Below, piece by piece: positions 17,790 through 20,728 of a stretch of DNA of 64,000 nucleotides. The stretch's first letter is position 1, and each line of letters starts with the position of its first letter. Below the pieces are notes generated by a model that was not told where the DNA came from, searched no databases, and worked only from the letters and a program-made list of their open reading frames with translations. The stretch covers positions 1,625,789 through 1,689,788 of the forward strand of contig NC_009440.1 of the NCBI RefSeq assembly GCF_000016605.1, read 5' to 3'. The translations under genes were made by a program, and so were the position numbers. Origin of the DNA: Metallosphaera sedula DSM 5348. Lineage in GTDB: Archaea; Thermoproteota; Thermoprotei_A; Sulfolobales; Sulfolobaceae.

Positions 17790-18413
17790 ATGAGTGGTAT
17801 CTCCGCCCTCCAAGAGGCCACCAAACCCAGGCAGGGAAATAGGCCCAGCTACGATGAGGCTTACGTTATGTGGGCTTTGAACCTGATCCATGACGAACCG
17901 CCAATGGGTAGGTTAACCCTCATGAAGAAGCTTGGGTTGAGCGAGGCCTCGGTGAAAACCATGTTGAAGAGATTGAGGGAGATGGGCCTGATAACTGTTG
18001 ATAGGATCGGGGGAACTGAATTAACGGAGGGTGGGAAGAAACTGGTGGAGGGATGGAGATCGATGGTAAGAATATCTGAGGTCTACATTAACTCGCTTAA
18101 CTGGAAGGCCATCCAACTGGTGATTCTAGGTGGGAAAAACCTAGTGGAGAGGGAGGGGGTAATCCAGTTGAGAGATCTCATCATCAGAACTGGCGCTGAG
18201 GCTACCCTGATCACTATTAAGGAGAACCAGGGAATAGAGATTCCACCAAAGACTGAGGACTTCTCCATGAAATCCCTTTTACAGGAGGTAGCCCTTCTTT
18301 CCTCCTCATTACCTGTGGGCAGTCTCATCATTTACCTTATCCCACAGGACATTCATTTGGCATATAAGGTGGGAATTTCTCTCCTAGAACATGAGAGTAG
18401 GATTTCTGGTTAA
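17790..18413 (+). CDS. Winged-helix transcriptional regulator-like protein (DUF4443-type)
   Basis: The 207-residue protein has an N-terminal winged helix (residues about 25-85; MKKLGLSEASVKTMLKRL is the recognition-helix region) and a C-terminal alpha/beta domain that could bind a ligand. It looks like an archaeal DUF4443 member, for which I know no function. It is leaderless, divergent from argF with a shared core-promoter region, and overlaps the ATP-NAD kinase gene by 23 bp. Local control of argF is possible but unproven. Confidence 0.75.
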   Translation: MSGISALQEATKPRQGNRPSYDEAYVMWALNLIHDEPPMGRLTLMKKLGLSEASVKTMLKRLREMGLITVDRIGGTELTEGGKKLVEGWRSMVRISEVYINSLNWKAIQLVILGGKNLVEREGVIQLRDLIIRTGAEATLITIKENQGIEIPPKTEDFSMKSLLQEVALLSSSLPVGSLIIYLIPQDIHLAYKVGISLLEHESRISG

Positions 18414-19446
18414 TCCATACGCCGGCTCAGGCGGTAGGATAGGCCTCAAGGGAAGCGATGGAATTAGGCTACTGAATCCCGAAATCCCAGGTAGGGTTTA
18501 CAGGTTCCTGTCCAGAGCCCCTGACGTCGAGTACCTGGTCCCAAGGGGGAAAATGGGAGAGGAATACGTGAAGCTCAGGAAAAGATACACTCTTCTCAAC
18601 TCCGGCAGAGACGATTCAACCAGGCAAGACACGTTGATTGCCGTAGAGGAGATGAAAGAGAAAGGGGTAGACATAATAACTTTCGTCGGCGGAGACGGTA
18701 CTGCCAGGGACGTAGCTGAGGTTGCTGGGAGTTTACCAATCCTTGGCGTTCCCGCTGGGGTCAAGATGCATAGCGGAGTGTTTGCCACAACTCCCGAGAG
18801 TGCTGGAACCCTCCTAACCCTATTCGTTCAAGGAAAGGCTAGGGTTGTGAAGGCTGAGGTTTTGGACCTGGACGAAGAGGAATATAGGAAAGGTAGATAT
18901 GTGGTTAAACTGTTTCATGTGGCTAACACTATTTCATTTGCAAATTTACTTACTCCAAGTAAGGAAGAATACAACTATTCAGACGAAATAGACTCGATTG
19001 CCTATTTTTTTCTAGAAAAAATAATGAAAGACGACGTCACCTACATCATGGGGCCAGGAGCCACGGTCAAAAGAATAGAACAGATTCTAGGGCTTTCACC
19101 AAACTTTCTGTCTATTGATATCATCAAGGGAAAGAAAGTGGTAAAATACAACGCAAATTATGAGGATTTGAAGTCATTAACCGGGGAGTTAAAGCTGGTC
19201 CTAACGCCTATCGGAGGACAAGGTTTCGTTATAGGTAGGGGTAACCAGGAGCTGGGGCCAGAGGTGTTGAGGAGGGTAGGGAGAGAGGATCTGATTCTTG
19301 TCTCCTCTAGGGCAAAGGTGAACAAGTTAGACTGTCTCAGATTTGACACAGGGGAGCCATCTCTAGACCTCAAGTTCAGCGGAGTGTACAGGGTAATTGT
19401 GGGATACGATGAGTATGTGGCCATATCCACGTGCAGTATCACTTAG
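18391..19446 (+). CDS. ATP-NAD kinase family protein (COG3199)
   Basis: The 351-residue protein has the nucleotide-kinase start GFLVNPYAGSGGRIG and the hallmark GGDGTARD (residues 100-107) shared by NAD kinases and diacylglycerol kinases. Members of this longer archaeal/proteobacterial group are annotated as ATP-NAD kinases, so NADP production is likely but the acceptor is not proven. It overlaps the upstream winged-helix gene by 23 bp. Downstream, 75 bp separate it from the WhiP-like gene. Confidence 0.82.
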   Translation: MRVGFLVNPYAGSGGRIGLKGSDGIRLLNPEIPGRVYRFLSRAPDVEYLVPRGKMGEEYVKLRKRYTLLNSGRDDSTRQDTLIAVEEMKEKGVDIITFVGGDGTARDVAEVAGSLPILGVPAGVKMHSGVFATTPESAGTLLTLFVQGKARVVKAEVLDLDEEEYRKGRYVVKLFHVANTISFANLLTPSKEEYNYSDEIDSIAYFFLEKIMKDDVTYIMGPGATVKRIEQILGLSPNFLSIDIIKGKKVVKYNANYEDLKSLTGELKLVLTPIGGQGFVIGRGNQELGPEVLRRVGREDLILVSSRAKVNKLDCLRFDTGEPSLDLKFSGVYRVIVGYDEYVAISTCSIT

Positions 19447-19521: not shown

Positions 19522-20238
19522 GTGTCCGATAGGGAGCGTAGCGTGGAGGATATTCAGGTCTCGCGGGAGGCCGGAGGATCTCCCAGATCTAAGCTTATGG
19601 AGGCTATCCTAGTTTTGCTCCACGCTAGGCCCCTGAGGACCTCGGAGATCTCCTCAAACCTAGGGTACGAGACCAAGTACGTGAGCAGTTACTTGAGCTA
19701 CTGGAAGAAGAAAGGCCTCATATACCTTGAGGGTGGAAGATGGTACCTTACCCCTCAAGGAGAGTCCCTCGCAACTGCTATCATTGAATCGTACTCCAAC
19801 TCCAGGTTCAAGGAAATGCTCGTCATAGCTAAACAAATGCTTGGTGAACAGGTTAAGGAGACAATAAACAACAAAGGTAAACAAAGTTCGGAAAAACAGG
19901 AGAAGGAAGTCTTGTCGTTTATTGACTCCAAAACCAGATCTAGAGACAATAAATCACAAAACAAGGATCCGACGGTTTGTCTATCGGATATTTCAGAAAA
20001 ATTAGATAAAGAAGAGAGAGATATTCTGATGTTCCTTCTAGAGAGATATAAACAATGGGGTTCCACATATATATACATCGATCAATTGCAGGAGGAGTAC
20101 AAGGCGGATTCGGCATGGCTGTTCAAGGTCTTGAGGGGCCTCCAGACCAAGAAGATCCTTTACCTGTATAATGACCCTAAGCTAGGGTTTAGAATAGGCT
20201 TCTCTCAAAACGTTAAAAGGAAACTCGAAAACTGCTAA
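19522..20238 (+). CDS. whiP: Double winged-helix protein, probable WhiP (oriC3 initiator)
   Basis: The 238-residue protein has one winged helix at about residues 23-85 ([20 protein letters not shown] is the DNA-reading part), a charged low-complexity linker at about 110-155, and a second winged helix at about 160-235. WhiP, the Cdt1-like winged-helix initiator protein, has tandem winged helices and is encoded beside the third replication origin in Sulfolobus. From memory, Sulfolobus WhiP lies between the CdvB2 and thermosome genes, which is the position here. Naming therefore rests on architecture plus gene order, not on a search. The start is a leaderless GTG. Confidence 0.65.
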
Positions 20239-20392
20239 TATTTACTTCTACCAGCTGTGAAGTTTTGTTGACTTCTAAGCTGTTTTACTAACTATTATAC
20301 AAACATGATATGATTGCTCTGACAAGAAAATATGAAAAGAGTAGTAGTAATCTATATAACTGGTCCAGTTGAAGAGATGGTAATGTAAAGAG
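20239..20392. other. Candidate replication origin (oriC3-like) next to the WhiP-like gene
   Basis: This A+T-rich gap follows the WhiP-like gene. It holds two direct repeats, ACTTCTA-CC-AGCTGT (20244-20258) and ACTTCTA-AGCTGT (20271-20283). A long A+T stretch follows (20284-20360). Next is TCCAGTTGAA (20364-20373), one base away from the TCCAGTGGAA core of crenarchaeal Orc1/Cdc6 (mini-ORB) sites. It also contains the TATA box of the next gene (20353-20359). Together these fit a compact origin, but no experimental or search support is available here. Confidence 0.45.
20244..20283 (+). repeat. Direct repeat pair ACTTCTA(CC)AGCTGT
   Basis: The two copies are at 20244-20258 and 20271-20283. They differ only by a CC insertion and start 27 bp apart. 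They are candidates for initiator-binding sites. Confidence 0.55.
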
Positions 20393-20401
20393 GTGTTTCC
20401 G

Positions 20402-20728
20402 TTGTCGTCAAATAAATCGATAAAAATGTCTGAAGACGAGATCAATAAGGCTTTAGCGAAGGCGGAAAAGGAGGCGGAGAAGAAGGATCATAAGAAGATC
20501 TGGGTCGAGAAGATAATGAAGAGCGCAAAGGCCTACTATAAGGTTTGTCCCTATTACGATAAGAAAACTTCAAAATGTTTCCTTTCACTTTCAAACAAAT
20601 GTAATAGAGATGGAAAATACGAGAATTGTCCAGTATTTCTGGAGTTTCTGGATAATAAATACCAAGAGTTCACTTCCAAGAAGAAAATTTTGCCATTGGA
20701 CTTTCTGGATTTGGCTCAATCGGTTTAA
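20402..20728 (+). CDS. Hypothetical protein with a four-cysteine motif
   Basis: This protein of about 108 residues has a charged helical N-terminus (ALAKAEKEAEKKDHKK) and a C-terminal motif CPYY..C..C..C that could hold zinc or an iron-sulfur cluster. The TTG at 20402 follows AGAGGTG at suitable spacing. A GTG at 20393 and an ATG at 20426 are alternatives. A TATA box at 20353-20359 puts its promoter inside the candidate origin. I do not recognise the family. Confidence 0.65.
   Translation: MSSNKSIKMSEDEINKALAKAEKEAEKKDHKKIWVEKIMKSAKAYYKVCPYYDKKTSKCFLSLSNKCNRDGKYENCPVFLEFLDNKYQEFTSKKKILPLDFLDLAQSV

Follow-up and report, generated by a model that had tools for sequence, protein, structure and literature searches.

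The stretch of DNA analysed here (hereafter, the window) covers 64,000 nucleotides, positions 1625789-1689788 of the single-contig genome of Metallosphaera sedula DSM 5348 (2,191,517 bases); positions and letters given below refer to its forward strand. In this region a NAD kinase-like gene (18391-19446) precedes whiP (19522-20238, forward strand), the gene for a double winged-helix initiator protein of 238 amino acids, which is separated by a gap of 154 bp (20239-20392) from an ORF of 111 amino acids (20393-20728). The latter is followed by a 267-aa ORF, by an ORF on the other strand and, finally, by an ORF that, from its sequence, we take to be thermosome-like. The association between whiP and the 111-aa gene is a stable one, the second following the first in all the 31 Sulfolobaceae genomes, and the TATA-like element of the 111-aa gene (CTATATAAC, 20352-20360, forward strand) is kept in all six genomes of the genus.

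Within the gap, the left putative WhiP box TACTTCTAC (20243-20251) is followed, after 42 bp, by the ucm ATTATACAAAC (20294-20304) and, after a further 36 bp, by the right putative WhiP box GTAGTAGTA (20341-20349), which is inverted with respect to the left one and carries the extension ATCTAT (20341-20355 as a whole), overlapped by the TATA-like element. The left box overlaps the first half of copy 1 of a direct repeat that is discussed below. The stretch between the two boxes (20252-20340), a candidate region for duplex unwinding and helicase loading, is 70% AT, versus a window mean of 54%, and just 1.5% of the 89-bp stretches sampled from the window are as AT-rich.

The gene upstream of the gap is a WhiP orthologue, an identification that was made via the Sulfodiicoccus acidiphilus locus. 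The genome used for this purpose (G020) fits S. acidiphilus: its whiP match (1016614-1017306) starts 7 bases past the stretch that PMC6647314 gives as directly upstream of whiP, and that upstream stretch has 436 bases and an AT content of 64.9%, versus the 64.91% published there. All the 31 family genomes harbor one orthologue each of the winged-helix protein, the closest relative standing at 94% at the protein level, and WhiP relatives are present in other families of the order. No match was obtained in plasmids and phages, with the single window sequence as the query, nor in viral contigs, where none of 59 pattern matches was confirmed by alignment. The AlphaFold model of the protein, of moderate confidence (mean pLDDT 69.1, pTM 0.38), contains two winged-helix-like units, at about residues 24-76 and 163-227, with a low-confidence linker between them. 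For the N-terminal unit there are matches among the solved winged helices (best Z 13.0), and the C-terminal one can be regarded as winged-helix-like from the order of helices and strands in the model; a PDB sequence search with WhiP gave no match at E 0.1 and a Foldseek search against the PDB nothing at E 0.001 or better. Two units of this type joined by a floppy linker would fit, rather than demonstrate, the binding of DNA by WhiP. In published accounts, WhiP is described as related to eukaryotic Cdt1 (PMC4010727, PMC5134839), the oriC3 of S. islandicus is reported both to be defined by WhiP and to need it (PMC12141716), and ChIP data place a persisting WhiP on the oriC3 of S. solfataricus (PMC5134839).

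The box-ucm-box layout was found in all the 31 family genomes, with a strength that varies from one to another. An unsupervised motif search to the left of the ucm in the 31 loci returned aTcTACTaCtaCta, and a separate search to the right of it returned ATTACTACTACTAC on the complementary strand, both having been run without a shuffled control. When a matrix derived from the right side was used, 18 of the left boxes of the family had a shuffle p not above 0.05 and the other 13 missed this level; that of the window is individually weak (p = 0.09), and weak left boxes were also observed in L007 and in the g3 genomes. The right-box pattern GTAGTAGTAATNTAT has 29 exact matches in the 31 genomes, 26 of which lie at whiP, and the reversed control pattern has one. 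The distance between the left box and the ucm is 39-47 bp in 25 family loci, 52-54 bp in four, 65 bp in one and 123 bp in one (L022), and that between the ucm and the right box 33-40 bp in 22 and 44-48 bp in nine. A helical phasing of these distances, which cluster around 43 and 53 bp on the left and around 37 and 46 bp on the right, was considered and is not claimed, since several periods fit about equally well and plain clustering yields the same statistic.

The central element is a known UBP binding site. Indeed, ATTATACAAAC is identical to the published 11-mer, that is, to the 11 bases differing between the ucm oligonucleotide and its mutated control in PMC12141716. It occurs a single time in the M. 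sedula genome, where the degenerate form WTTATACAAAC has two sites, one in the whiP gap and one at position 154 (oriC1), the latter lying upstream of an orc1/cdc6 gene and having ORB-type sites on both sides. On the whiP strand of the family loci, WTTATACAAAC is exact in 25 cases and has one mismatch in the remaining six. Among the matches listed, which come from 27 of the 31 genomes and number 144, 21 are located at whiP (0.05 expected), 21 upstream of orc1/cdc6 (0.8 expected) and 102 elsewhere; the assignment to orc1/cdc6 relies on a limit of 2.3 kb around Cdc6_C that was picked after the distances had been seen, and the match of G006 that spans the record start was assigned by hand. The 102 matches located elsewhere are in keeping with the 329 UBP ChIP peaks reported for S. 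islandicus (PMC12141716). A pair of ucm copies, 86 bp apart, was also observed upstream of an orc1/cdc6 gene in L123 (G014:C1:2079876-2079972).

The analysis was extended to 21 loci of other families (the distant loci), two of which (L071 and L073) were excluded, the contig ending too close after whiP, so that 19 were readable; the rows L053-L060 (the same family again) and L082 (a partial protein) had been left out. L080, whose right side is too short, entered neither the strand scan nor the motif search, whereas L065 was kept in the former and omitted from the latter, and the near-identical pairs L067/L068, L074/L077 and L078/L079 were counted as separate loci in the strand and ucm scans. 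A box matrix pooled from both sides scored higher on the expected strand than on the wrong one in 48 of 49 loci for the left box and in 49 of 49 for the right one. Since the training set of this matrix consisted of the 31 family loci, the 18 distant loci represent the independent part of this comparison; taken alone, they gave 17 of 18 on the left and 18 of 18 on the right. The same control was applied to a held-out set from other families (L101-L111, nine of which are new, L102 and L106 being L062 and L066 again): the expected strand prevailed on the left in all nine and on the right in seven, L101 and L105 failing, and four of the nine have strong right boxes. With the right-side matrix, p values of 0.05 or less were obtained for 12 left and eight right boxes in 17 distant loci, L081 being missing from this tally, and a TACTACT-type left box scoring at least 8.8 is present in 15 of 18 distant loci. 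The motif search on 17 distant loci gave, with scores well above those of three shuffled runs each, CTACTAc for the right side and GATATTATnG for the left. The latter motif, a second conserved box on that side, precedes the ucm by 47-50 bp in 16 of the 17 (for instance in L074, L077 and L081) and by 24 bp in L064, and was not noticed in the gaps of the Sulfolobaceae. In addition, a near-palindrome like GTTAACCGGGGGGTTAAC, with variants, was noticed by eye just past the right box in L069, L070, L074-L077, L108 and L111. At the whiP gap, the elements, their orientation, spacing and conservation, as well as their near-uniqueness to this place, can be read directly from the genomes.

As far as the orientation of the ucm is concerned, it runs along whiP in all the 31 family loci. 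A reversed ucm within two mismatches, mostly accompanied by the boxes, was detected in 16 of the 19 readable distant loci: in eight of them (L061-L064, L066, L069, L070 and L075) it has at most one mismatch, which is expected in 0.4% of random 260-mers, and the other eight have it with two (7.8% expected), in two cases on a par with a forward ucm match; L065, L076 and L080 have no reversed ucm within two mismatches. All the nine held-out loci have a ucm within two mismatches, reversed in eight and forward in L110, and in four of them (L103, L108, L109 and L111) the reversed copy has at most one mismatch. Thus, the direction of the ucm differs between the Sulfolobaceae and most of the loci of other families, within the same inverted boxes, and its polarity relative to the gene might not be fixed.

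The arrangement can be compared with that of known origins. It resembles the oriC3-whiP of Sulfolobus/Saccharolobus as described in PMC3718332, PMC4010727 and PMC12141716 in having a gap beside whiP, a central ucm and conserved sites on both sides of it. However, PMC3718332 describes for S. islandicus three ORB-like "nORB" sites, located both upstream and downstream of the UCM, versus the two inverted boxes observed here. A search of the literature (CC-licensed papers, figures excluded) retrieved neither the text of the box nor the strings GTAGTAGTAAT and CTACTACTACT in combination with Sulfolobus; since the nORB sequence stands in a figure, the box may already be known in print. The gap also resembles oriC1, both in M. 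sedula itself and in S. islandicus, where inverted initiator sites for Orc1-1 flank a ucm (ORB-ucm-ORB), but differs from it in the initiator, in the box (TCCAGTGGAAACAGAGGGG at oriC1 versus TACTWCTAC) and in having no ORB pair around its ucm. For this comparison ten oriC1-type stretches were used, chosen for an exact ucm: in the four genus genomes, the gaps between the inverted ORBs and the ucm are 38-39 and 41-44 bp, versus 42 and 36 bp in the whiP gap, and in the six other loci they are 47/49, 81/36, 88/55, 36/60, 48/47 and 36/61 bp. The match in spacing between the whiP gap and oriC1 is thus good within the genus and looser beyond it.

On the whole, we consider it likely that the gap between whiP and the 111-aa gene is the core of a WhiP-dependent oriC3, in which the TACTWCTAC pair would be read by WhiP and would load MCM. 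According to this idea, two TACTWCTAC initiator boxes that face each other, each some 40 bp away from the ucm and on opposite sides of it, would be bound, through its winged helices, by the WhiP protein encoded by the adjacent gene, and each box-bound WhiP would recruit one MCM helicase per side onto the AT-rich DNA between the boxes. A UBP bound to the ucm would then sit between both helicases, as PMC12141716 proposes for oriC1, where MCM would be brought in by the ORBs so as to face the UBP on the ucm. By analogy, the TACTWCTAC pair would serve WhiP as the ORB pair serves Orc1-1. The contact of WhiP with the boxes, the loading of MCM and the firing of the origin in M. sedula are what we infer from this arrangement. 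It is also possible that the binding of WhiP may dampen the promoter of the 111-aa gene, the right box abutting the TATA element in the family.

A different protein might be responsible for reading the boxes. It might be hypothesized that the gap is indeed an origin in which TACTWCTAC is recognized by an Orc1 paralogue or by some other factor, the site of WhiP being another part of the gap, such as GACAAGA; we regard this as unlikely. It draws on reviews that place Orc1 proteins at the oriC3 of S. solfataricus (PMC5333045, PMC6742236), from which it follows that the box could serve another protein, and WhiP at all three origins of that organism (PMC6742236). The latter point weighs against our own interpretation, a box confined to whiP not explaining binding at three origins, and implies that recognition of the box would not be the only way for WhiP to get onto DNA. 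The sequence GACAAGA (20321-20327), located between the ucm and the right box, is a candidate inner element that recurs in the genus; it was found in the right interior of eight of 50 loci, with GACAA alone in ten more, and its carriers are spread over several genera and families, these counts having been made without a chance control. An inverted partner of it on the left, forming a family-wide inner inverted repeat, was looked for and is not supported (Fisher over genus medians, p = 0.37, in 30 of the 31 loci, L022 being left out). Moreover, the leader of the 111-aa gene contains an ORB-like TCCAGTTGAAGA (20364-20375), which L003 shares and which has the form TCCAGTGGAAGA in L006. The boxes themselves are unlike ORBs: the best ORB-core match of the gap has three mismatches out of 12, a level reached by 20 of 300 shuffles, and that of 24 of the 31 family loci has four or five. 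A pair of ORBs around the ucm of the whiP gap was not found either, since the best ORB-core match lies to the right of the right box and has no partner. Finally, the near confinement of the TACTWCTAC-type box to the whiP locus fits a dedicated initiator.

It is even less probable that there is no origin in this place and that the right box is a promoter or regulatory element of the 111-aa gene, with the left box being there by chance or as a regulatory partner. This would account for the right box running into the TATA-like element in the Sulfolobaceae and for the 111-aa gene being next in all their 31 genomes, but not for the persistence of CTACTA-type right boxes in distant loci, where the 111-aa gene was detected in just one of 21 cases (L075, upstream of whiP). 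Of the seven distant loci whose neighbour was scanned, six are followed by a convergent, unrelated gene that codes for an AAA ATPase of the proteasome type (L061, L063) or for Nre (L067, L070, L074, L077), which speaks against a right box serving solely the promoter of the 111-aa gene. Besides, the right box has an inverted partner, and the element at their centre is a ucm, which is found at oriC1 too.

The original prediction had assigned the possible WhiP-binding sites to a direct repeat. This repeat does exist as described, its two copies (ACTTCTACCAGCTGT, 20244-20258, and ACTTCTAAGCTGT, 20271-20283) starting 27 bp apart and differing by a CC, and it is located right behind the whiP stop codon and ahead of the TATA-like element. 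A lack of conservation in relatives had been named as one of the observations that would refute this assignment, and the direct repeat is rejected because it fails in this respect: in an alignment inspected by eye, copy 2 is absent from all five other genomes of the genus, and the part that recurs is confined to TACTTCTAC, the first half of copy 1, exact in two of the five and with one or two changes in the other three. The partner of TACTTCTAC is the inverted box at 20341-20349, which lies outside the stretch covered by the prediction, and it is this inverted pair around the ucm, present throughout the family (31 of 31 genomes, a few of them having a weak left box), that takes the place of the direct repeat as the putative WhiP site. 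The two short repeats are probably the result of chance, and the second copy is judged not to belong to the origin. An iteron-like initiator site is scarcely credible, given that the repeat, although it has the highest score among the direct repeats (gapped) of the gap, is equalled in 82 of 1000 dinucleotide shuffles and in 15 of 415 window tiles, and that conserved direct repeats, as in an iteron origin, were not observed at these loci. Thus, the expectation of an initiator site next to this gene was in part borne out, in that a WhiP orthologue lies upstream and the gap looks like an initiator-bound origin, the direct repeat not being the site. The TACTWCTAC pair is the likeliest WhiP site on present sequence evidence, and only the first half of repeat copy 1 would belong to it.

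A similar direct-repeat argument for WhiP sites beside whiP is found in the prediction of an oriC-2 in S. acidiphilus HS-1, which PMC6647314 placed upstream of whiP (1016172-1016607) on the basis of AT content and of 12 direct repeats. In this published stretch the best matches have three mismatches for the ucm, four for the right box and two for TACTACTAC. In the same locus (L030, G020:C1:1015114-1018806), the gap downstream of whiP contains a ucm with one mismatch, an exact right box and the left box TACTACTTC. Since the ucm and the boxes are located there and are absent from the published upstream stretch, the sequences make it more likely that the S. acidiphilus origin lies downstream of whiP and not upstream of it. 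Concerning other indications of position, the GC skew of the 64-kb window does not change sign at 20.2 kb and does so at several other places, the first near 11 kb. In G022, which we take to be S. acidocaldarius DSM 639, the ucm lies at 1,197,437, and as this identity is presumed, its comparison with the mapped oriC3 weighs little either way. The oriC3 of S. acidocaldarius is given at 1,200 kb in PMC5809426, and the distances in a table of PMC12361140 imply about 1,224-1,226 kb.

The gap probably represents a further oriC3 of a known kind, whose anatomy is sharper than the one we found in print. Neither ORB nor mini-ORB is seen at oriC3 according to the review PMC4010727, and with an inverted box pair that is named and conserved to great depth, the recognition of DNA by WhiP becomes open to a direct test by means of a few mutations. 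The results also suggest that the published Sulfodiicoccus prediction lies on the wrong side of whiP. More tentatively, and with slightly less than even confidence, we can speculate that a ucm-centred spacing is shared by Orc1 at oriC1 and by WhiP at oriC3, with the initiator being interchangeable and the polarity of the ucm not necessarily fixed. The present results bear as well on the question, raised in PMC12141716, whether UBP makes the origin asymmetric. If the idea of a shared geometry were correct, then the fixed unit of the crenarchaeal origin would be the distance at which two helicase-loading sites face each other around a UBP site.
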